Virus record (IMG/VR): IMGVR_UViG_3300017755_000082
Coordinates: 1 to 26,539 of that record
Strand: one strand, 5' to 3'
Length of the DNA stretch: 26,539 nt
DNA from: a virus
How positions within the stretch are numbered: the first letter of the stretch is position 1; every line of letters starts with the position of its first letter. This document shows, in pieces, positions 1,421 through 26,539 of the stretch. A program made the translations under genes and the position numbers. The notes beneath the pieces were generated by a model. That model was not told where the DNA came from. It did no database searches and worked only from the letters and a program-made list of their open reading frames with translations.

Positions 1421-1711
1421 TTATCCTAGTAAAGTTGGTTGATAAGTTTCAGCTTCTGTAGTCAAACCTTGTGGTCCTGTTAGGATGGTTGACTTTCTGC
1501 CTTTTTTCTTTTTGTTAACTGATGCTATTGCAGCTTCTTCAGCATCTTCATTGATAGCTCCTGTTGGATCAGCTGCTGCTATTTCAGATTCTGTTGGGGT
1601 ATTTGTAATTTGTTCTTCGGTGTTACCACTGCTTGGTGGATTGTAAGCTACAGGCTTTGGTGCTGGTGGCACAGGTGGCATACTTACTTTTGGTTTAAAA
1701 ATTCTGCTCAT
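1421..1711 (-). CDS. proline-rich small phage structural-type protein (96 aa)
   Basis: The protein starts MSRIFKPKVSMPPVPPAPKP. A Thr/Glu/Ala-rich acidic middle follows, then a basic patch (NKKKKGRKSTILTGPQGL) and a TLLG end. Small podovirus proteins with a Pro-rich N-terminus, a GR(K/S)STILT patch and a (K/T)TLLG-like end are familiar to me from T7-like and marine phages, next to portal, tail or terminase genes. Their exact role is unclear. The start codon lies within the 3' end of the terminase gene (17-bp overlap), with TTAGGA 7 nt upstream, which indicates translational coupling. Confidence 0.8.
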   Translation of the reverse strand: MSRIFKPKVSMPPVPPAPKPVAYNPPSSGNTEEQITNTPTESEIAAADPTGAINEDAEEAAIASVNKKKKGRKSTILTGPQGLTTEAETYQPTLLG

Positions 1712-3476: not shown

Positions 3477-3866
3477 TCACTTGATCTCTGGTATTACCTC
3501 ACTACTCCAAGCAATAGTCATCTTGGTATCAGCCTTAACATCTGCTTGTATCTTATCACCAAATGTACCAGCTAATAGTTTACTACTCATCCAACGTGCA
3601 TGATGTAGACGTTCTCTGTTCCATTGTACTGCTTGTGGTTCACACTCTTGTTGCAGTAACTCCATCATACTATCGAGGTAAGTCCATGCTCCAAGTTGTC
3701 TAGCATCAGCTATCTCTTTACGAATATCATCGTCATCCTTCATCCAGGAATACACAGTTGTGACTGCTGGAAAGCTCTTGTCACTACATATCTTAGATAG
3801 TGGAATGCCTTGCTGAAGTTTCTCCAATATTACAGGGATCTTGTCTTTTAAGTTTGTCTTTGACAT
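3477..3866 (-). CDS. terS: terminase small subunit
   Basis: A 129-residue protein of the small-terminase type. The N-terminal HTH region (LQQGIPLSKICSDKSFPAVTTVYSWMKDD) would recognise the packaging site. A helical centre (ARQLGAWTYLDSMMELL) follows, then the characteristic HHARWMSSKLLAGTFGDK segment seen in many phage small terminases. The ATG lies inside the upstream HGG-motif gene (74-bp overlap, different frame). The gene ends in two consecutive stops (TGA TGA), after which the same frame stays open for 40 codons (see findings). It partners TerL at 1695-2990. Confidence 0.85.
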   Translation of the reverse strand: MSKTNLKDKIPVILEKLQQGIPLSKICSDKSFPAVTTVYSWMKDDDDIRKEIADARQLGAWTYLDSMMELLQQECEPQAVQWNRERLHHARWMSSKLLAGTFGDKIQADVKADTKMTIAWSSEVIPEIK

Positions 3867-4035
3867 GTTTTAAATTCATTAATGCTTTTAGTTTGCCTTC
3901 AGGTGTCTTTGGTCCTGTCGATAACCCACCATGTAACTTACACTTACCATTAGCAAGTGCTTTAGCTTTACAAGGTAATCGAGTGGAACGAGCATAAGCT
4001 CCACACTCTTTTTTATGAAGTGGTCTACCTACCAT
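3793..4035 (-). CDS. HGG-motif phage protein (HGGLSTGPKT)
   Basis: An 80-residue protein with two cysteines and a histidine in CGAYARSTRLPCKAKAL and CKLHGG, then the hallmark GLSTGPKTPEGK. This Cys/His plus HGGxSTGPKTxEGK pattern recurs in many phage genomes, often just upstream of the small terminase, as here. A small zinc-binding domain is likely from the Cys-x-His pattern. The function is not established to my knowledge. The 3' part overlaps terS by 74 bp in another frame, an unusually long overlap for this phage. Confidence 0.8.
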   Translation of the reverse strand: MVGRPLHKKECGAYARSTRLPCKAKALANGKCKLHGGLSTGPKTPEGKLKALMNLKHVKDKLKRQDPCNIGETSARHSTI

Positions 4036-4087: not shown

Positions 4088-4103
4088 ATAGTTAAATAAC
4101 TAT
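4088..4103. repeat. 16-bp near-perfect palindrome at a gene end
   Basis: ATAGTTA-AA-TAACTAT, a 7-bp inverted repeat with a 2-bp spacer, spans the stop codon of the gene at 4100-4513. It lies in the 64-bp gap before the HGG gene. No T-run follows on either strand, so it is not a standard terminator. It could be an operator or a 3'-end stabilising element. Confidence 0.4.
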
Positions 4104-4513
4104 TTGATTTTGTCATACTTGTCTAACAAATATTTGTCATAAGCTACCAAATACTTAATATAAATTAGAACTTCTAAGTACATTTCTTTAACCTTGTGTC
4201 GATGCATGCCAAGTTTCTTTCCAATGTGTACATATGGCATACCCATACCTCTGGACCAAACTAGTTTACGTTCTGTAGTATCAAGCAATGGTGTGATGTG
4301 ATAAAGCAAAAAATCATACCGTGCTATTTCTTTTGACGATGCAGCACTGCGTGTTGGTTTCTTATCCCAGGCATTGTGTTCAGTGACATCGTGCTTGATG
4401 TCAAACTTCATACCATTGTAACCTTTCTTATATGCAGCTGGAAGTTTACGATCCGTAGCTATTGCTTCTTCGAAGGCATCAACTAACCAAGTTGTGGAAA
4501 CTGTTTGAGCCAT
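4100..4513 (-). CDS. DUF6362-like phage protein with C-terminal HTH
   Basis: A 137-residue protein. It starts with VDAFEEAIATDRKLP. The C-terminal half has a short HTH-like segment (ERKLVWSRGMGMPYVHIGKKLGMHRHKVKEMYLEVL) resembling a sigma region 4-type recognition helix. This layout matches the phage family I know as DUF6362, which lies in early or middle operons and is thought to bind DNA. A strong RBS (AAAGGAG) precedes the ATG. The start overlaps the end of the HTH/iteron gene by 31 bp. A packaging or late-transcription accessory role is possible. Confidence 0.65.
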   Translation of the reverse strand: MAQTVSTTWLVDAFEEAIATDRKLPAAYKKGYNGMKFDIKHDVTEHNAWDKKPTRSAASSKEIARYDFLLYHITPLLDTTERKLVWSRGMGMPYVHIGKKLGMHRHKVKEMYLEVLIYIKYLVAYDKYLLDKYDKIK

Positions 4514-5034
4514 TTCTTATCTCCTTTCATTACATCATCCCAGAACTGTTTTTTACGATCAGATGATAGGTTTTTTAAAAAGTTGTAGAGCTTGTCCTTC
4601 TGGGCTTTAGGCACTCGTGCTTTCTTAGCAGCGGTCTGCTTCACAGCAGACCTGTAATGCACATTGCTATGTTTAGCAGTGGATTGGATGAGAGATTTAA
4701 CCTTACCCCCTCGTAAATCATGTCTAGATATATCTGTTCTAGATATATCTAGTTTAGATATATATTGTTTATTAATATATACACTTTTTGTCACATCATT
4801 GACTGGGAAGTAACGACACGTTGACGCTAACCGTTTAGATACAATGAATTCCTTATCCCTTAGTTCTTTAATACATCGGATAACAGTACGCCTAGAGATG
4901 TGCAAATCTGACGCAATGGTAGCTTGACGTGGCAAGCACTTACCGTATCGATAGTACAAGCTCTCTAGATAAATATAAACTATCTTAGCCTGGGGGGTGA
5001 TGTCCTCACGAATAAATCGATCTAATGGATTCAT
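4483..5034 (-). CDS. HTH protein, candidate replication initiator (lambda O-like layout)
   Basis: A 183-residue protein. Residues 1-75 form a winged-helix/HTH domain: DITPQAKIVYIYLESLYY, then CLPRQATIASDLHISRRTVIRCIKELRDKEFI, as in HTH_36 and phage replication-protein N-termini. A low-complexity middle (three SxxDI/L units, residues 92-105) is encoded by three 15-bp iterons. The basic C-terminus (KKARVPKAQKDKLYNFLKNL) looks helical. A DNA-binding N-domain with repeats inside the gene is exactly how lambda O carries its origin, so I propose an initiator, without proof. No DnaB/DnaC-type partner is seen nearby. The start overlaps the upstream stop as ATGA. Confidence 0.7.
   Translation of the reverse strand: MNPLDRFIREDITPQAKIVYIYLESLYYRYGKCLPRQATIASDLHISRRTVIRCIKELRDKEFIVSKRLASTCRYFPVNDVTKSVYINKQYISKLDISRTDISRHDLRGGKVKSLIQSTAKHSNVHYRSAVKQTAAKKARVPKAQKDKLYNFLKNLSSDRKKQFWDDVMKGDKKWLKQFPQLG
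4723..4767. repeat. three 15-bp iterons, possible replication origin
   Basis: Three direct repeats start at 4723, 4738 and 4753 (exact 15-bp period). The first two share TCTAGATATATCT and the third is TTTAGATATATAT. Each core contains the palindrome AGATATATCT or a variant. An AT-only-rich stretch (4761-4790) adjoins the array, like a DNA-unwinding element. The repeats are in frame (5 codons each) within the candidate initiator gene. Confidence 0.7.
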
Positions 5035-5522
5035 TTAGGCAACAGCCTTATGTCTGTCAGGTCCTCAGCTGGTATCCCGTAGAACTTTGGTCGTGTTCCG
5101 ACCTGGCGTTCATAACGTGCTACCTTAGCATCACTAGCTTTCATAAACCCAACTACCTCATACCTGGTGTTAGAATGTGACAGCACTAACACATGCAAGA
5201 GGTCATCAGGTGCATTAGGTTTGATAACTAAGAAGTTGCTATGTTTGTTTGGATCAATCGTATGATGCAGCTGTGCTTTAATCTCGTAGTCACCAAGATC
5301 AGGTCGACTAAAAGTGTTAATTGAACCATCCCAATACATGCCGAGAGCTTTAGCTACAGCACATTCTGCCACTGCCGATACCACTGACCAGCCAACATCT
5401 GATATGGGTGTCCAGACGCTACCATAACGATCCTTATGCCCATTTAAAATTGATTGCACCTTACGATCTAGGCCGACCTGAGCCGCCATTTTATATTCGT
5501 ACCACTCCAGTTCAACGATCAT
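5031..5522 (-). CDS. PD-(D/E)XK nuclease-like phage protein
   Basis: About 163 residues. The pattern fits a PD-(D/E)XK core: a helix with a conserved acidic residue (VAECAVAKAL, Glu53), then RPDLGDYEIKA, where Asp75 or Asp78 and EIK (Glu80, Lys82) supply the metal-binding signature, followed by strands (FLVIKP, VLVLS, YEVVGFM). Many phage proteins of this shape have lost the lysine; here it is present, so activity is plausible. I start at the ATG at 5522, which has GGAAAG upstream and overlaps the previous gene by 11 bp. A GTG at 5552 would add ten residues. It may act in host DNA degradation, recombination or repair. Confidence 0.6.
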   Translation of the reverse strand: MIVELEWYEYKMAAQVGLDRKVQSILNGHKDRYGSVWTPISDVGWSVVSAVAECAVAKALGMYWDGSINTFSRPDLGDYEIKAQLHHTIDPNKHSNFLVIKPNAPDDLLHVLVLSHSNTRYEVVGFMKASDAKVARYERQVGTRPKFYGIPAEDLTDIRLLPK

Positions 5523-5781
5523 TGGCTTTGGCTTTCCAAAATAATACTTCACGCTTTAAATCATCGATTTGATTTTCTAATAACATCAAAGCTCGTTCAT
5601 CACTAATCTCAGGAATGTATGGCACATAGTCATTGATCTGCCGTGCAAACTGACCAGTCATGTCGTGCTTCGGTTCACAGCCACCACAGACATAGCGTCT
5701 TTCATTGTTGTAGCTGTACAATGCAATTCCACAATACTTACACTTGCCTTGCTTGTGCAGATTTGTCACATTACCAACCAT
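5512..5781 (-). CDS. small zinc-ribbon protein
   Basis: About 89 residues. The N-terminal zinc ribbon has two CxxC pairs, CKYC and CGGC, 17 residues apart. A C-terminal helix with a heptad-like pattern follows (ALMLLENQIDDLKREVLFWKAKA), suggesting dimerisation through a coiled coil. The function is unknown; a nucleic-acid-binding role is usual for such phage proteins. I prefer the second ATG (5781), because AGAGG lies 6 nt before it and only touches the first ATG at 5787. The gene overlaps the nuclease-like gene downstream. Confidence 0.65.
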   Translation of the reverse strand: MVGNVTNLHKQGKCKYCGIALYSYNNERRYVCGGCEPKHDMTGQFARQINDYVPYIPEISDERALMLLENQIDDLKREVLFWKAKANDR

Positions 5782-5805
5782 ACTCATCCTCTGGATTTAA
5801 TGGCA

Positions 5806-6075
5806 TTAGTTCTTACCTACTTTTAATGTGGTTATGTTTTCACAGCATGCTCTAGTGATAGCTATGGCTCTGCCTGTTGTGCCATCACTGCAAAAGTCAG
5901 CACTTAAAACTATGCGGTCAGCTTCATCAGTAATTAACCAACCAACTGACACGACAGGCTCAGTCTTTGCAGCCTGGACCTTCTTCAGATCATTCCAACC
6001 TGTTTCAAAGTCACATGGATCATGCCATTTAACTTTGACCAATCTAAATTGATTAAGGTTGAACTTCTTGCTCAT
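5806..6075 (-). CDS. 89-aa hypothetical protein
   Basis: Reading from ATG 6075 (GGGAG 5 nt upstream) gives 89 residues starting MSKKFNLNQFRLVKVKWHDP. The pattern of strands (VVSVGWLITDEADRIVLSADF) followed by a helix suggests a small alpha/beta domain. The middle (VSVGWL.....DRIVLS) recurs in small phage early proteins. A longer reading from 6105 adds ten residues inside the upstream gene but has no RBS. It overlaps the Cro-like gene by 23 bp and is thus the second gene of the leftward operon. No function assigned. Confidence 0.65.
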   Translation of the reverse strand: MSKKFNLNQFRLVKVKWHDPCDFETGWNDLKKVQAAKTEPVVSVGWLITDEADRIVLSADFCSDGTTGRAIAITRACCENITTLKVGKN

Positions 6076-6277
6076 GCAGCTCCCTGTACTTGGCAACAAA
6101 GTCATTAGCAGTTACTGCCTGTTTAGTTTTGTCTTGTATCCGAATCAGTATGTTGAGCTTGGGATAGCGTGTGCCAATACAATAACGCATAGCCGAAGTG
6201 GGGGATTTTAAGCCTAAAAAGGTAGCTAACTCCTTATAGCTCATGTTATTTAGTGTCCGATAATCCTCTAAAAGCAT
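6053..6277 (-). CDS. Cro-like HTH regulator
   Basis: A 74-residue protein that is essentially a single helix-turn-helix domain: LNNMSYKELATFLGLKSPTSAMRYCIGTRYPKLNILIRIQDKT, then AVTANDF. The VTANDF ending after the HTH is typical of phage Cro/CI-type regulators. It is the first gene of the leftward operon (nuclease-like, initiator-like, terminase), is transcribed divergently from the CI-like gene, and is separated from it by the TTTAC/GTAAA array. It probably antagonises the repressor and autoregulates. Lacking any C-terminal oligomerisation domain, it resembles Cro more than CI. Confidence 0.8.
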   Translation of the reverse strand: MLLEDYRTLNNMSYKELATFLGLKSPTSAMRYCIGTRYPKLNILIRIQDKTKQAVTANDFVAKYRELHEQEVQP

Positions 6278-6377: not shown

Positions 6378-6989
6378 ATGAATACAGATACTGGCACACC
6401 ATTTGACGGCAATATGATTGTCAAAAATGTTCTACACCGTTATCAAATATCACAAACAGACTTGTGTCAAAAACTTGGCTACAGTCGTGAAGCCTTTAGC
6501 AAAGTTGTTAATGGACATAGAGCTTTGTCAGTTGTTAAGGCTAAAGAAATTGCTTTGGCGTATGATTTAGATTGGCGTAGCTTTTATGAAACGCCAGCTG
6601 ATCGTTTTGTACCAGCTACTGCGTGCATAGATGCACTTTATGTACGCAAATTAAAACAAACTTGGATGATAAAGTGTCCTAAAGAATGGCACAATAACTC
6701 AGTATTTTATGCAATTTGTAATAAAGGTTTTGAGTATGACGAATACTGTTATGTCATTACTAAGAAAACCATACCGTTTGATGACAAAAAACAAGTTAAC
6801 GCTTGGACATTGTTTACCTTAAAAGATGGTAGTCAACTAATTGGTCATGCTGATGGTTATGCTGATCCACAAGGTAAAATGATTCGGTTTTATAATTGTG
6901 AAACTAAAGCCATGATGACTTTAGCAACTAAAAAAATTCTGACTATGCAAAAAGGCAGAGCTTTATTGTCACCAACAGACAACAAATAA
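6378..6989 (+). CDS. CI-like phage repressor, XRE-type HTH
   Basis: A 203-residue protein. The N-terminal XRE HTH (VKNVLHRYQISQTDLCQKLGYSREAFSKVVNGHRALSVVKAKEIALAYDLD, about residues 15-66) includes the usual VVNGHR turn. The C-terminal half (residues 75-200) has strands and a GHADGYADPQG loop near the position of the LexA/S24 fold, but I see no clear Ser-Lys catalytic pair. It may therefore be a non-cleavable repressor induced another way. Transcription is divergent from the Cro-like gene. The RBS is weak or distant (AGGGAT 12-13 nt before ATG), consistent with low expression. Confidence 0.78.
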   Translation: MNTDTGTPFDGNMIVKNVLHRYQISQTDLCQKLGYSREAFSKVVNGHRALSVVKAKEIALAYDLDWRSFYETPADRFVPATACIDALYVRKLKQTWMIKCPKEWHNNSVFYAICNKGFEYDEYCYVITKKTIPFDDKKQVNAWTLFTLKDGSQLIGHADGYADPQGKMIRFYNCETKAMMTLATKKILTMQKGRALLSPTDNK

Positions 6990-7137
6990 ACTCACCGATT
7001 CTCAACTATTTTCTATGTATGTTCTATACATATAAAAGAACTAATATTTAGTAGTTATATTTTTTTCACGAAATGGGTTTTTTTTTATTTACAAAGTAGC
7101 TTTTTTGTTTATTTTTTATATCAACAAAGATAGAAAA
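6990..7137 (+). promoter_or_regulatory. intergenic control region before the recombination operon
   Basis: About 148 bp, AT-rich. It holds a 7-bp inverted repeat TATGTAT-N5-ATACATA (7014-7032), which could be an operator or part of a promoter (TATAAA at 7031-7036). A weak AACTA/TAGTT hairpin followed by ATATTTTTTT (7039-7064) could act as a poor terminator for the repressor gene. A second T-rich run lies at 7079-7090. No gene fits here; the in-frame upstream TTG at 7105 is not a convincing start. Confidence 0.45.
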
Positions 7138-8076
7138 ATGAACGCACAAATTAGTACAGACTTTAAACAATTAATTGACTCACCAAATGCAGAATTATTT
7201 GGCACATGGAACTTCGATCATCACTCAGCATCACAGCTGAACTTGCCAGAAGGTAATTGGGCATGGAAATACTTTTGTTGCAGTCAAGAAGATAGACGCA
7301 AATTTAAATTTACTGCTAAGCCAAGACTTGGTGTAGCAGTCGGTGGTGCAATAGCTTTAATGTATGCTGACATCATCTGGACTTACAATTCAGAAAAAAT
7401 AGAAAACACTAAAATAACTTTTAAAGATTACTTACGAGTTGTTGATGAAGATTTAGCTGCTTACGAGCCTATGTTTGATGACAAAGAAGAAGCTCAACAT
7501 GCATACCATAAAACGATTGCTCACAAGATGGCTCACCAATTACATAAAGGTATTAAAAGCCTGGCATTACAAGGTGTAGTCGAGTCAGAAGCTAATCGGT
7601 ATTACAATGTCGGCACAGAGATTGACCTGTTAGGTCGAACTGACCTAGAAAACGATACCTGTGTAGTAGAGATCAAGACTTTACCACCAAGACGTGGCAA
7701 ACTTAAAAAGGATGGCACTTACGGTTTCAGTACGCAATCTATTAAAGAACCAAAGATAGATGCAGCTCGACAAATTGCATTGTATTGGGCAGCAACAGGC
7801 AAAAAACCGTTCCTGGTGTATGCCAATGAAAACGAATATACGATATTTGATCCTAGCAATTCAGACTTACTGACTAAAGCTGCCATGAGAGATCACCTCA
7901 AGTTCTATAAGTCCAAAGCTAAACTGCGTGAGAACTTACTCATACAAGCAGATGGCAACATCAATAAACTATTGAGTTTGGTAAGCCCTGATTGGGAGCA
8001 TCCGTTCTATTGGGATATTGGTGATGAATTTGTAGAACAAGCAAAGATTGATTTTAACAAAGCAATGGAAGGATAG
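7138..8076 (+). CDS. PD-(D/E)XK recombination exonuclease (RecE/Cas4-like)
   Basis: 312 residues from ATG 7138. It carries the full PD-(D/E)XK signature: GRTDL (Asp169), then VVEIKT (Glu178, Lys180), and the downstream RQIALYWAATG giving the QxxxY motif (Gln212, Tyr216) of RecB/Cas4-like exonucleases. The upstream helices (HKTIAHKMAHQLHKG) supply the conserved His/Gln region. Such enzymes resect double-strand ends to give ssDNA for the annealing protein next door. The gene lies 1 bp before that gene, whose RBS is inside its last codons. It would act in phage recombination, and perhaps in concatemer formation or repair. Confidence 0.85.
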   Translation: MNAQISTDFKQLIDSPNAELFGTWNFDHHSASQLNLPEGNWAWKYFCCSQEDRRKFKFTAKPRLGVAVGGAIALMYADIIWTYNSEKIENTKITFKDYLRVVDEDLAAYEPMFDDKEEAQHAYHKTIAHKMAHQLHKGIKSLALQGVVESEANRYYNVGTEIDLLGRTDLENDTCVVEIKTLPPRRGKLKKDGTYGFSTQSIKEPKIDAARQIALYWAATGKKPFLVYANENEYTIFDPSNSDLLTKAAMRDHLKFYKSKAKLRENLLIQADGNINKLLSLVSPDWEHPFYWDIGDEFVEQAKIDFNKAMEG

Positions 8077-9308: not shown

Positions 9309-9596
9309 ATGGAAATATTAAAAGAAGCAGAAAAAATATTTAAACAACGGCACAATCAGTATGGTGATTTTGTACCAAGATTTAAAAAGACCGCAGCTCT
9401 GTACGCAGCTTTACTTGGTATCAAGGTCGTAGGCTCAACCATCTGCAAACTAATTATATTAGAAAAACTAAGTAGGTCAGGACACACATACATAAAAGAT
9501 AACTGGCTAGACATTATTAACTATTCATTGATGGGAGAGATTTTACAAAAGCTCGAAGATCAAGAGAAGAAGCAAAAGGTACAACCAATAAAATGA
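9309..9596 (+). CDS. DUF6378-like (MazG/nucleotide-associated-like) protein
   Basis: 95 residues. It matches a family I recall as DUF6378: EAEKIFKQRHNQYGDFVPRFKKTAALYAALLG at the start and DNWLDIINYSLMGEILQKL at the end. The second part, with its DxxxDIxNY pattern in a helix, recalls the acidic metal-binding helices of MazG-like and nucleotide-associated domains. A nucleotide-handling role is inferred, not proven. The RBS is weak. The stop overlaps the start of the LexA-like gene (ATGA), so translation is coupled. Confidence 0.7.
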   Translation: MEILKEAEKIFKQRHNQYGDFVPRFKKTAALYAALLGIKVVGSTICKLIILEKLSRSGHTYIKDNWLDIINYSLMGEILQKLEDQEKKQKVQPIK

Positions 9597-9796
9597 CACT
9601 AAACCAAGTTAAAGTTTTAGAATTTATTAAGAAGTTTATAGCTAACAATAGCTATTCACCAAGCTATGAAGAAATAGCTTTGCACATGAATTGGAAGGCT
9701 CGTAGTCAGGTGCATAACGTCATCAGGCAATTAGAAAAACGTAAGTACATAACGTATCTACCTAACCACTCAAGATCGGTTGTTATCAATGAGTAA
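9593..9796 (+). CDS. LexA-type winged HTH without a peptidase domain
   Basis: 67 residues that correspond to the LexA DNA-binding domain alone: TLNQVKVLEFIKKFIANN, then YSPSYEEIALHMNWKARSQVHNVIRQLEKRKYI and a wing ending NHSRSVVI. Full LexA adds a self-cleaving peptidase domain, which is absent. It could bind a LexA-like (SOS) operator without being cleaved on DNA damage, or simply regulate phage genes. It overlaps the preceding gene by 4 bp and the next by 8 bp. Confidence 0.82.
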   Translation: MTLNQVKVLEFIKKFIANNSYSPSYEEIALHMNWKARSQVHNVIRQLEKRKYITYLPNHSRSVVINE

Positions 9797-18416: not shown

Positions 18417-21400
18417 TTATCCTTCTAGTGCTGCCACTTTAGTTTCTAAGGTTTCAATTCTTGTTTGTGCTTCTTGTAAAGCCTTGATAGCTTTCATATA
18501 TAATACAGAATAGCTAACAGATTTAACTTGTTCGGTAACTTCTTTGACATCACCAATAGCTTTACCTTCAGGAATATCATCACCATCTTCATAAAGTGTA
18601 CCAAATTCAGATGAAGAAATAATATCAGATTTTTCTGGGTCACGAGACTTAACTAATCCAGGACTAACTGTTTCAGTTTCTTGTGCTACTAAACCTAAAT
18701 AAGTTTTTGCAGCTTGACCACCACCTTCTTCAGTTCTAGCTTCGTCTTTAAGTTTAAAGTTTCTAACTTTTAAACCTTTGATATCATCCCATTGAGAATT
18801 AGCATCAGTTATGTTTTGTTTAATTCTTTCGTCAGAAGTTGCACCATAACTATTAGTGGCACTATCAAAATCACCATTAGCATAAATTACAGCTCTAACA
18901 GTGCTATTATTATTGCCCACACATCTAAAGAAATAACTACCTGTGTCATTTACAGTAGAGCTAAAATTTATTTGTTGTCCAAAAACATTACCACTTGTTT
19001 TGGTGTTTTTTACATAAAGTATCACATCATTTAAATCTGTAGTAAGTGTATGTTGACCATCATAACGAATAGTTAATCTATTTATATCGTGTGTTTTTAA
19101 ATTTAAGTTTTGTTGTGAAGTCGGACCAAAACCAAAACCCCTGTTTCCTGAAGCATCTAAATATTCTACTTCCATTTTACAGTTATCAGAGCCTACATTC
19201 CATTGTTGTAGTTTTTCATCACTACCACCACCAACAGAAACAGATCCTTGTACTTCAAGTAGCATATCAGGAGAACTTGTACCAATACCTACTCTATTAT
19301 TTTCACCATCAACAACAAACATTGTAGCATTATCATTGGATTCTATACGAAAATTTCTGTCAACCGAAGCGTCATTAAAAACAGTTTCAGTTGGACTTAT
19401 ATGAAAAGCATCAACTACCGCACCAGCAGTTAGCATATTAAATGTTAATTGAGCATCTTCAGTACCATCACTTGCATCTCGTATTAATGCATTAATAGAA
19501 ATATGGTCTAAGGCTTCACCAGCATCATTATCAGCAACAAATCTTATTCTACCAAGTGAATCATCATCTGCTGGAGAACCACTATCTCTTTGTAAAACAA
19601 AATCAGGACCTACGCTTGCGTCAGCATCAGTAGATTTTAGAGTAAGTTGAGCTGTGTTATCAGCAGTTGTGATTGTAGAAGCTGCTGTTGCAGAAATTGC
19701 ACCTGTTACACTCAATGCTCCAGTTGCTACTGCACCAGTTGTAGTAATGGTAGATGATCCAGTATCAATGTTACCAAAGCCCGATGTAATTGTACCAGCG
19801 TTTAATGCACCTGTGCCTGTGACGCTAGTGTAAGAACCAGCAACTCGTGCTACTGGTACTGTGCCACTACTTAAATTATCAGCATTTATTGATGCTACAC
19901 TAAATGTACCAAAAGCTACAATGTCAACTTCATCACCATTAGTAAGAGCTGAAGCAAACGTAACAGTATCACCTGATGTTACCGTCACATCAGCTGTACT
20001 CATTCTCACACCATTTAGATAAACGTCTACAAACCCAGCATCATACGCAAGAGTATTACCAGCAGCGTCACTGCCTGTAACAGCTGTCGGTGTACCTGAA
20101 ATATCGTAGTGGTATCGTTGAGCTGTACCATTGACAGATGAACCAGCATTTTGCCAGCCACTTGCACCGTACACATTCAACACATTAGTTGACGTATTAA
20201 AATAAAGATCACCAGCTGTCAGTGAGCTAGTGGGAGCTGATGATGCTATTCGATAAACGTCACCAAAATTATTTACCGCAGATAAATTAGATGCAACAGT
20301 ATTAACATTAGAGATTGAGCCACCAACATTATTAACATTACTTACAGCACCAGCCACAGTTGCAATATTAGCTACAACACCACTACCATTTAAGTTAGCA
20401 ATGTTAGTTAAAACACCACTAGCATTTAAGTTAGCCATGTTTGTTACATTAGTAGATGTGCCTAGTGTATTTAAATCAGAAACAAAGTCGGATGTTGCTA
20501 GTAAATTTAAATCCGTAACAATGTCAGACGTTGCCAGGGTATTGATGTCAGAAACAATATCGGATGTTGCAAGTGTATTTAAGTCACTCACAATGTCAGA
20601 CGTTGCTAAAGTATTAATGTCAGAAACAATATCAGAAGTAGCTAAGGTATTTAAATCTGAAACAATATCAGAAGTAGCTAGTGTGTTTATATCAGAGATC
20701 ACATCAGATACAGCCAATGCGTTCATGTCAGAAATAACATCAGATGTAGCAAGCAATGCCATATCTGCAATCACATCAGTTGTAGCAAGCAATGCCATGT
20801 CCGCAACCACGGCACTAGCAGCTAGAGTATTAATGTTAGTTTGATTGGATGAAGTAGGGGTTGTAGCTTGCCAAGCAGATCCACTATACACCATTAATAG
20901 GTTGTTGGTTGTATTGAAATATAATGCACCTGTAAGTAAAGAGTCACCATCATTGTCAGCAGATGGATCAGAAGATTTTTGTCCTAGGTATCTATCGTCA
21001 AAATTATCTAAACTTGTAGCTGCACTGGTAGCTGAGGTAGCAGCTGCTGATGCTGAAGTAGCTGCTTCACTAGCTTTAGTTGTAGCTGTGTCTTTATGAC
21101 CTGAAGCTGTCGATGCACTGGATGCCGCAGCTGTAGCAGAACTAGCAGCAGCCGTAGCACTTGATGCGGCAGCAGTTTGACTTGTAGTTGACGATGCAGC
21201 ATCTACTAATAAACTCCATTTAGCAGAATCTGTATTAGTTGTAAGTGGCTGTGAGCCTGAAGAAGTATGAGCTGTTAGTGCAATAAAAATATTATTAGTT
21301 GAAGTATCTTTAACTATATCTCTTGGCACATAAGATGTAGACGCACCCCAGTTGCCTTTAAATGTACCTAATTCTTGAGTAACGGATAATTCACCTGAGC

Positions 21401-21866
21401 TGTCAAAAGCTAGGATTTTAGAAGCACGATCCGTAGCTGAGTTGGTAAACTCAGTAGAGGTCATAGTATTCGTTCTTGATAGTTTCATAGAACGATCAAC
21501 TTCTTCTTGCACTTCTTGAATTTGCATTTGTAATTTGTCTAATGCATCTTCATGGGTTTCAGCTGCAAATGGATCGTTCTCAACGTAATCAGATTCTTGC
21601 GTCAAACTAGTGTCACGGATTAGCACCAGGGTAGTACCAGAAGCTGGAGCTGTTACCATAGTGACTGTGCCACCAGATGCTCCGTTGTCTACAATAGAAT
21701 AATTAGCAGAACCTGTGCCTTCACTTTTTACAGTTTCTGTTCCGTTAGCTGATCTCTCAATTACTTTTAGTTCTGACGTTGAATTGATTGGGAACGTAAA
21801 CGTAAAAGCTGTAGTTGAACCATTACCAGAATACGATTGTGATACGGTTGTCGTAGATAGTGTCAT
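18417..21866 (-). CDS. tail fibre with T7-fibre-like N-terminus and S74 chaperone (1149 aa)
   Basis: The N-terminal about 150 residues match the virion-attachment domain of T7-type fibres (YSGNGSTTAFTFTFPI, later TLVLIRDTSLTQESDYVE, ending in a coiled coil DKLQMQIQEVQEEVDRSMKL). The Ala/Ser/Thr-rich shaft follows. A run of 12-residue repeats (ATSDIVSDLNTL type) encoded at about 20385-20860 comes next. The C-terminus is a second S74 domain with SDERIKQN (cleavage Ser1011) and GLVAQE, ending in a coiled coil. It probably forms the long host-binding fibre. The gene lies 3 bp downstream of the 993-residue gene. Confidence 0.9.
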   Translation of the reverse strand: MTLSTTTVSQSYSGNGSTTAFTFTFPINSTSELKVIERSANGTETVKSEGTGSANYSIVDNGASGGTVTMVTAPASGTTLVLIRDTSLTQESDYVENDPFAAETHEDALDKLQMQIQEVQEEVDRSMKLSRTNTMTSTEFTNSATDRASKILAFDSSGELSVTQELGTFKGNWGASTSYVPRDIVKDTSTNNIFIALTAHTSSGSQPLTTNTDSAKWSLLVDAASSTTSQTAAASSATAAASSATAAASSASTASGHKDTATTKASEAATSASAAATSATSAATSLDNFDDRYLGQKSSDPSADNDGDSLLTGALYFNTTNNLLMVYSGSAWQATTPTSSNQTNINTLAASAVVADMALLATTDVIADMALLATSDVISDMNALAVSDVISDINTLATSDIVSDLNTLATSDIVSDINTLATSDIVSDLNTLATSDIVSDINTLATSDIVTDLNLLATSDFVSDLNTLGTSTNVTNMANLNASGVLTNIANLNGSGVVANIATVAGAVSNVNNVGGSISNVNTVASNLSAVNNFGDVYRIASSAPTSSLTAGDLYFNTSTNVLNVYGASGWQNAGSSVNGTAQRYHYDISGTPTAVTGSDAAGNTLAYDAGFVDVYLNGVRMSTADVTVTSGDTVTFASALTNGDEVDIVAFGTFSVASINADNLSSGTVPVARVAGSYTSVTGTGALNAGTITSGFGNIDTGSSTITTTGAVATGALSVTGAISATAASTITTADNTAQLTLKSTDADASVGPDFVLQRDSGSPADDDSLGRIRFVADNDAGEALDHISINALIRDASDGTEDAQLTFNMLTAGAVVDAFHISPTETVFNDASVDRNFRIESNDNATMFVVDGENNRVGIGTSSPDMLLEVQGSVSVGGGSDEKLQQWNVGSDNCKMEVEYLDASGNRGFGFGPTSQQNLNLKTHDINRLTIRYDGQHTLTTDLNDVILYVKNTKTSGNVFGQQINFSSTVNDTGSYFFRCVGNNNSTVRAVIYANGDFDSATNSYGATSDERIKQNITDANSQWDDIKGLKVRNFKLKDEARTEEGGGQAAKTYLGLVAQETETVSPGLVKSRDPEKSDIISSSEFGTLYEDGDDIPEGKAIGDVKEVTEQVKSVSYSVLYMKAIKALQEAQTRIETLETKVAALEG
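20385..20860. repeat. 36-bp in-frame repeats in the tail fibre gene
   Basis: Around fourteen diverged copies of a 36-bp unit encode the 12-residue motif [L-A-T-S-D-I-V-S-D-L-N-T]. Central copies (about 20470-20700) are the most alike. The antisense strand stays open over this stretch, but only as a shadow of the repeats. Slippage here could change fibre length. Confidence 0.75.
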
Positions 21867-25855: not shown

Positions 25856-26539
25856 TTACTGATTAGCCAATCTATCATATATATCTGCACCATAAGTAGT
25901 TTTCAGCATATCAATTTCATCTATAATGTCATTTTGTCTACGTTCAGGAATCTGACTGGCTTTTATATCAAGTTTAGATTGAGTAATATTATTGACATCA
26001 ATTAAAATATTATTGTCAGTCATAGCTGCACTACCATTTATATCAGTAATTACATTTTGAGCAGACGTTAATAATTTAGTTTGAACAAAACTATCAGCTT
26101 CTATCATAACTTGATTAAATATTTCTATTGGACTTAGTTTACCTTCCATTACTAAATCATCAAATCTTTTTACATATATGCTAGTAGCATCATTATAGGC
26201 ATCAGCTCTAGTTGGATCATTTTCTTGTAAACTTTCAATGTAAGCATTGTTAGTAGAAAATATTTGACCTTTAATATTATTACGCAAACGATTGACCAAT
26301 GGTGATGATATACTTGTTACCGACACATGAGTATCGTGCAAATCTTTGAAAGTTGCTTCAGTTACAGTTGGTCTTAGTGCAAGTATTTCAGCATAATCAT
26401 AATTACCTTTATTAATTTCTGCTTTTTCTATAATGACATCAATCGTGTCAACATCAGCATAATTAAAATTATTTTTTGATGCAGCTATTAATTGTAGTGC
26501 TGTGCTATCACCAAGATTGTCTGTTTCTAGTTGTTTATA
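25856..26539 (-). CDS. partial virion-like protein, 5' end cut by the window edge
   Basis: The frame is open from the stop at 25856 to base 26539 without a stop, at least 227 residues. The TTG at 26341 is therefore only an internal codon, not a reliable start. The visible part is helical and Asn/Asp/Thr-rich (for example KLDIKASQIPERRQNDIIDEIDML at the end), with no membrane segment. Its stop is followed after 2 bp by the ATG of the 307-aa gene, so it is the upstream gene of the same operon. A structural or ejection-protein role is plausible by position. Confidence 0.6.
   Translation of the reverse strand, partial: YKQLETDNLGDSTALQLIAASKNNFNYADVDTIDVIIEKAEINKGNYDYAEILALRPTVTEATFKDLHDTHVSVTSISSPLVNRLRNNIKGQIFSTNNAYIESLQENDPTRADAYNDATSIYVKRFDDLVMEGKLSPIEIFNQVMIEADSFVQTKLLTSAQNVITDINGSAAMTDNNILIDVNNITQSKLDIKASQIPERRQNDIIDEIDMLKTTYGADIYDRLANQ

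Follow-up and report, generated by a model that had tools for sequence, protein, structure and literature searches.

Why should the middle of a helix–turn–helix (HTH) gene carry a short and strictly periodic array of direct repeats? The question is raised by a stretch of viral DNA of 26,539 bp (an IMG/VR virus record, called the window below). The original prediction described three 15 bp repeats next to an AT-rich stretch within an HTH gene and read them as a replication origin on the logic of lambda O, in a phage without visible replication genes; an autoregulatory operator was offered as the alternative. Our analysis suggests that the repeats are probably iterons of an intragenic replication origin, bound by the initiator that the gene itself would encode.

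The features of the locus are collected in Table 1. Three exact ATATATCTA(A/G) units, read in the coding direction (minus strand), start at 4763, 4748 and 4733 and have a strict 15 bp period. TRF scores the array as 2.7 copies with 92% matches, and protein-preserving codon shuffles of the gene reached the repeat score in 0 of 200 trials; the repeats are thus present, with the period and in the place claimed for them. Allowing at most one mismatch, AGATATATCT has seven matches in the window (1.44 expected, with a maximum of five in 100 shuffles), and a spaced AGATATATCT pair is found once against an expectation of 0.00 (100 shuffles). No further exact copies of the repeat units occur elsewhere in the window. 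On the plus strand AGATATATCT is exact at 4726-4735 and 4741-4750 and has one mismatch at 4756-4765, so that two units have the perfect palindromic form and the third departs from it by one base. Read directly from the sequence, positions 4739-4752 form a perfect 14 bp palindrome, CTAGATATATCTAG. In our table of units the ATATCTA core is fixed by construction and information resides only in the flanking columns.

Table 1. Positions of the repeat units, the gene that carries them and its neighbours in the window
Feature	Position	Strand	Basis
Putative iteron unit 1 (ATATATCTAAACTAG)	4749..4763	-	ATATATCTAR scan
Putative iteron unit 2 (ATATATCTAGAACAG); with flanking bases makes the 14 bp palindrome	4734..4748	-	ATATATCTAR scan
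Putative iteron unit 3 (ATATATCTAGACATG)	4719..4733	-	ATATATCTAR scan
AT-rich stretch, 80-90% AT; overlaps unit 1; candidate unwinding element	4750..4794 (coding nt 241-285)	-	30-nt window composition
Frozen DNA block: AT tract and repeats, residues 80-105	4720..4797	-	Synonymous-codon identity between groups A-D
Winged-HTH (HTH_36) replication-initiator-like gene, 183 aa	4483..5034	-	Pfam PF13730 E 1.7e-12; PHROG
Winged-HTH domain part, residues 11-64	4843..5004	-	HTH_36 match; AF2 model
Cro-like HTH gene, head of leftward cluster	6053..6277	-	HTH_3 E 7e-4, under curated cut-off
DUF6362 gene, downstream, overlaps HTH_36 gene	4100..4513	-	PF19889 E 2.5e-9; weak sigma-factor-family match phrog_1740 E 0.087
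Terminase small subunit	3477-3866	leftward	phrog_1482 1e-19
Large-terminase match	1695-2990	leftward	DNA-level match to large terminases of HTVC010P-type pelagiphages

The AT-rich stretch adjoins the repeats as described, and its role as a candidate unwinding element is suggested by analogy with lambda. Skew along the molecule, one of the checks that had been recommended, was uninformative. GC and AT skew in the window track gene direction and do not single out the repeats, and neither Greip nor HTVC010P, cultured phages considered below, has a skew extreme on its repeats. Detrended AT skew does have its minimum at 4791, a value that means little in a fragment with such a gene layout.

The placement of the repeats inside an HTH gene is borne out by the HTH_36 match, which is accompanied in Pfam by weaker HTH families. 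The best PHROG matches of the protein are 'replication initiation' families, namely phrog_270 (2.8e-10, residues about 9-171), phrog_428 (4.4e-8) and the 'O-like' phrog_678 (4.7e-7). NCBIfam gave regulator matches only, all of them sub-threshold, and a sequence search of solved structures returned no match at E 0.1. An AlphaFold2 model built on 26 aligned sequences presents a winged helix over residues 1-80 (block-mean pLDDT about 68-88, and about 74-88 for the winged-HTH domain part; helices 14-30, 37-44 and 48-60, strands 64-68 and 73-77), a linker at 83-139 with pLDDT <50 and then a small helical C-terminal part, with low confidence outside residues 1-80 (mean pLDDT 62.5). Foldseek recognizes the N-terminal part as a generic winged helix with best matches to MarR/ArsR-type regulators. 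The repeats are encoded by the beginning of the linker, where the units translate as ISKL-DISRT-DISRHD.

Relatives were sought with the winged-HTH part alone as the query (alignment A2), the repeats having no role in the search, and the resulting 37 viral loci were sorted into groups A (the window's own), B, C, D and E. Some members of B and C had first been met in a DNA-pattern search, and their winged-HTH parts were in the A2 query; that search gave 43 stretches, 21 of them in groups A–C, one (L066) in another HTH replication-type gene and the remaining 21, which were not used, in different genes or outside open frames. Before counting we dropped two truncated loci (L017, L124), one with a frameshift (L018) and three with gene DNA identical to other rows (L011, L014, L015), and group E was kept outside the A–D codon counts. 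The one-base frameshift in the initiator gene of L018 (4001-4548), where the repeats are intact, may be an assembly error. Genome contigs yielded no relative in a first scan and, in a second, one distant locus (L125, 41% identity over 59 residues) without such an array. A weak phage match, H1, was rejected as a relative; its 98-residue open frame has no such repeat.

The relatives compared share 46-62% protein identity. In the 30 distinct genes of groups A–D, ATA TCT is used in 86/86 IS(K/R/N) linker units, while elsewhere in those genes ATA makes up 85 of 364 Ile codons and TCT 124 of 446 Ser codons; the genes are related, and the counts are therefore not independent trials. Five ATT/AGT cases that resemble repeats come from the YISK that immediately precedes the array in group D and are excluded from the 86. 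Where two groups have the same amino acid, the fraction of identical codons is 0.90 in residues 84-105, compared with 0.43 in residues 1-80 and 0.43 in residues 106-183. The codons of the AT tract (GAT GTG, AGT GTA TAT ATT AAT AAA) are also frozen or nearly so. The best 20-column window of codon identity reaches 0.86 at this block of the HTH_36 gene, against 0.56 to 0.74 in seven neighbouring genes. Recent transfer of the block as the cause of the frozen codons is ruled out, since the spacer codons between the units vary. Eight genes (L105-L109, L112, L113 and L118) carry units though they are without the double motif of the DNA-pattern search. In several relatives taken singly (L105, L113, L118) the score of the repeat does not differ significantly from that of codon shuffles, so that the case there rests on the conservation across groups. 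The original prediction would have been undermined by relatives that keep the protein and scramble the DNA repeats; groups A–D do the opposite and keep the DNA more strictly than the protein requires. Judged from sequence comparison, the DNA itself is under selection at the frozen block, beyond the need of the protein.

Number and spacing of the units are variable. Genes with three units have them at 15+15 bp (ten genes), 18+15 bp (11 genes), 21+15 bp (two genes) or 18+12 bp (one gene), group D has two units at 15 bp in five genes, and L110 has a fourth, ISK, unit 45 bp further on. Across A–D the copy number is thus 2-4 and the spacing, besides the 45 bp of L110, 12-21 bp, with all steps multiples of three and in frame. 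Group E has the recognition helix SKRT where the others have SRRT. Here, two ATATCTAAG units persist in L135 at 15 bp, L132 has two shorter TATCTAAG at 12 bp, and the motif is absent from L121-L123 and L136-L137, so that not every member of the wider family has the element; in L121 no significant repeat was found, and in L136 an ATACTA-type repeat takes the place of the motif. Group E is compatible with iterons that change together with the binding domain, as far as its few sequences go, and is too little for proof. A different HTH_36 replication-type gene on another viral contig (L066, 2564-2661) has 15 bp tandem repeats of the CCGTCAACGGAAAAC type after its winged HTH and then two AGATAT units.

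The surroundings of the gene were also considered. Read leftward, the order is 6053-6277 (cro-like), 5806-6105, 5512-5787, 5031-5552, the HTH_36 gene, 4100-4513, 3793-4035, 3477-3866 and 1695-2990. A repressor-like HTH gene (6378-6989) diverges from this cluster, and beyond it come 7105-8076, a gene for a Sak annealing protein and one that is SSB-like. The HTH_36 gene sits in the kind of position that gene O has in lambda, in the succession of cro-like gene, small genes, HTH_36 gene, DUF6362 gene and terminase; the DUF6362 product, to judge by this position only, is possibly a late-gene regulator. The phrase 'without visible replication genes' was wrong, because the HTH gene is initiator-like, as its PHROG families indicate, and Sak and SSB-like genes lie nearby. 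A better wording is that an initiator-like gene and recombination genes are present and that helicase and loader were not found in six records. Profiles for DnaB_C helicases and IstB/DnaC-type loaders had matches in 0/6 virus records (the window and five relatives, some of them fragments), having detected DnaB_C in 14/14 and the IstB/DnaC type in 13/14 control genomes. With neither in any of the six, one would expect the initiator to rely on the helicase of the host.

Several other features of the window deserve mention. A small HTH protein is encoded at 9593-9796 (+), with matches to the repressor family phrog_362 (4.9e-7) and, weakly, to phrog_270 (0.0025). Three successive small proteins (951-1115, 1120-1416 and 1421-1711, minus strand) have a common C-terminal tetrapeptide, TLLG, which could be a shared docking tag beside the terminase gene; within the second of them, a 98-aa ORF, a 51 bp unit is tandemly duplicated at 1161-1261 with 98% matches. 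A long array of 36 bp repeats (20358-20810), which looks protein-driven, lies within a 1149-aa ORF (18417-21866).

Within the phage collection, the nearest terminases belong to HTVC010P-type pelagiphages. In 19 records of this type the gene syntenic with the HTH_36 gene is annotated 'putative transcriptional regulator' or 'hypothetical protein', and we examined 11 distinct phages out of these 19. The gene (Greip gp33, HTVC010P AGE60327.1 and others) diverges from nuclease and annealing-protein genes and precedes those of the two terminase subunits. Compared with the window family in hhalign, it aligns over the winged HTH only (probability 96, E 2.8e-9), and Greip gp33 has a match to the O-like phrog_678 (1e-4). 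When each gene was scanned over its full length, the strongest direct repeat fell in the linker in ten of the 11 genes, at 22 bp in nine and 21 bp in one; in Greip this part of gp33 is at about 26,085-26,117. For those ten, between 0 and 22 of 200 codon shuffles scored as high as the real gene; HTVC203P has no repeat. AGATAGCCGTT is common to Greip, HTVC100P, HTVC024P and HTVC035P, AGATAGCTCA occurs twice in HTVC204P and CAAGATAGCCAC twice in HTVC010P, Lederberg has three copies of a GATAGCCGT core, and the repeats of Skadi-1, Skadi-4 and HTVC034P are unrelated. A step of 22 bp, which three does not divide, puts the second copy in another reading frame, and the pair is translated into different peptides (QIAV and QDSR in Greip); this argues for selection on the DNA in these phages. 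No further occurrence of the repeat motif was found elsewhere in the genomes of Greip or HTVC010P. The six genes with the recognition helix LCRTTIK have GATAGCC-type repeats and the others differ; these genes are related, which makes this an observation and not a test. Set beside the window, the pelagiphage gene is syntenic, with a homologous winged HTH and intragenic putative iterons in the linker; it differs in the iterons themselves (AGATAGCC-type and others), in their 22 bp spacing and in the longer protein. A lambda-like helicase loader is reported in the Skadi paper, together with the absence of helicase and primase genes (PMC10504331). Titles and abstract openings in the literature contained no report that we could find of such an origin in HTVC010P-type phages. 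A further gene of Greip, gp42 (L150, 29919-30440), is annotated as Bac_DnaA_C domain-containing, and its product could be a phage DnaA-box binder relevant to Greip replication.

What else might the repeats be? They could form a control site for the same HTH protein or for another phage regulator, either by road-block autoregulation or through control of an intragenic promoter for the DUF6362 and terminase genes, with no origin involved. A winged-HTH protein with regulators as its top structural matches is at hand, relatives of the HTVC010P type carry a regulator annotation, and any binding site would fit selection at the DNA level. Against this, the array lies about 240-315 nt inside the gene with no copy before the gene or elsewhere in the window, no sigma-70-like promoter is reported in or near 4720-4797, and PHROG groups the protein with replication initiators, the proven case of lambda O having the same layout. 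We regard such a control site, the operator allowed for at the outset included, as less likely than an origin and as unlikely overall. The lambda O logic, in turn, is strengthened at the level of sequence by the initiator-like family, the O-like gene position, a synonymous freeze confined to the repeat and AT block, the in-frame variation of copy number and spacing, the lack of other exact copies in the window and the analogues in HTVC010P-type phages.

The remaining readings fare worse. Were the repeats there for the protein, as a repeated ISRxD linker peptide with the DNA repetition a by-product of recent tandem duplication, one would understand the in-frame placing of every unit and the repetition of the peptide, and the array at 20358-20810 offers a parallel. 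This is, on the sequences, already contradicted by synonymous sites that are frozen across groups with about half of their residues different, by an ATATCTA core that is constant while peptide spacing and copy number vary freely, and by the different reading frames of the HTVC010P-type copies, and we give it very little credence. Conservation of an mRNA hairpin formed by the self-complementary repeats is also highly improbable: of the five sequences folded, the RNA folds better than shuffles in the window (z -3.37) and somewhat so in L110 (z -2.02), but not significantly in L012 (z +0.67), L105 (-0.57) or L113 (-1.33), the stem is altered or lost as the spacing changes, and the adjacent AT tract is frozen too. 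There is scarcely more to recommend a partition or centromere-like site with the winged-HTH protein as its centromere-binding protein. Centromere-binding winged-HTH proteins of the AspA/pNOB8 kind are among the weak Foldseek matches, but these are generic (E 2e-3 to 6e-3) in a list headed by MarR-type regulators, no ParA-like match was seen among the window proteins scanned (part of the ORFs), and the phage carries an integrase.

We return to the repeats as iterons of an origin. Building on what the analysis establishes, namely the repeats, the domain, where the gene sits and the DNA-level selection, we propose that the N-terminal winged-HTH domain (residues about 11-80) would bind the ATATATCTA(A/G) / AGATATATCT units in its own gene, where they code for part of the flexible linker after the domain (residues about 83-139). 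The adjoining AT-rich tract would then be unwound, the small helical C-terminal domain may recruit the replicative helicase of the host, a step that lambda O performs with its partner, and replication would start at the repeats.

A wider generalization, for which we see about an even chance from the sequences at hand, is that in a broad group of small marine phages, including the HTVC010P type, the initiator linker is a dual-coded replication-specificity cassette, protein linker and origin at once, in which the iterons (sequence, number and phase) turn over with the recognition helix and the layout is fixed. If so, the unannotated origin of HTVC010P-type phages would lie within a gene labelled transcriptional regulator, and the 'putative transcriptional regulator' of the cultured pelagiphages (Greip and others) is suggested to be an initiator that carries the origin. 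This provides a group of marine phages with a testable candidate origin and initiator, and, since isolates of the HTVC010P type exist, the prediction can be checked. The locus is also a clean case of a single DNA stretch selected both as protein and as a putative binding site, the latter measurable from synonymous codons. In this small marine phage a start site for DNA copying is apparently hidden in the gene of the protein that would recognize it, as in lambda, with an unrelated-looking protein.

Lambda O served as the positive control, its annotated iterons (nt 349-433 of 900) being recovered by the same script with 0/200 shuffles reaching the score. In both phages the repeats lie in the middle of the initiator gene (four 18 bp iterons in lambda), the gene has a similar location in the early cluster, and both proteins match phrog_678 (lambda O with E 1.7e-35), which is an indirect link. 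The differences are substantial. Lambda O matches PF04492 (Phage_rep_O) with E 5.7e-36 whereas the window protein has no PF04492 match, and a direct profile comparison of the two with hhalign indicated no homology (probability 0.3, E 0.17). Iteron starts in lambda are 20/24/23 bp apart, while the window units are 15 bp apart and in frame. The AT-rich region of lambda is on the C-terminal-coding side of the iterons and that of the window on the opposite, winged-HTH-coding side, and no lambda-P-like gene was identified in the window. The window protein lies outside the lambda O protein family; that it works in a lambda-O-like manner is proposed by analogy.

As described in PMC7466680, an AT-rich tract adjoins the iterons of lambda, and the O proteins of the Stx phages P27 and 933W have two extra iterons in frame, giving six iterons and 13 additional residues. 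The gain of in-frame iterons lengthens the protein there, much as copy number and spacing vary in the window family, although the Stx-phage proteins belong to the lambda O family and the window protein does not. In SPP1 the initiator gp38 binds direct repeats within its own gene, at oriL, beside an AT-rich unwinding element (PMC6316719). SPP1 differs in that it also has oriR as a second origin and encodes both a helicase and a loader of its own; none of these was found in the window phage. Among the features of the intragenic-iteron-origin class exemplified by lambda O and SPP1 oriL, an initiator-like protein, direct repeats in its gene, an AT tract beside them and conservation at the DNA level are present at the locus described here.
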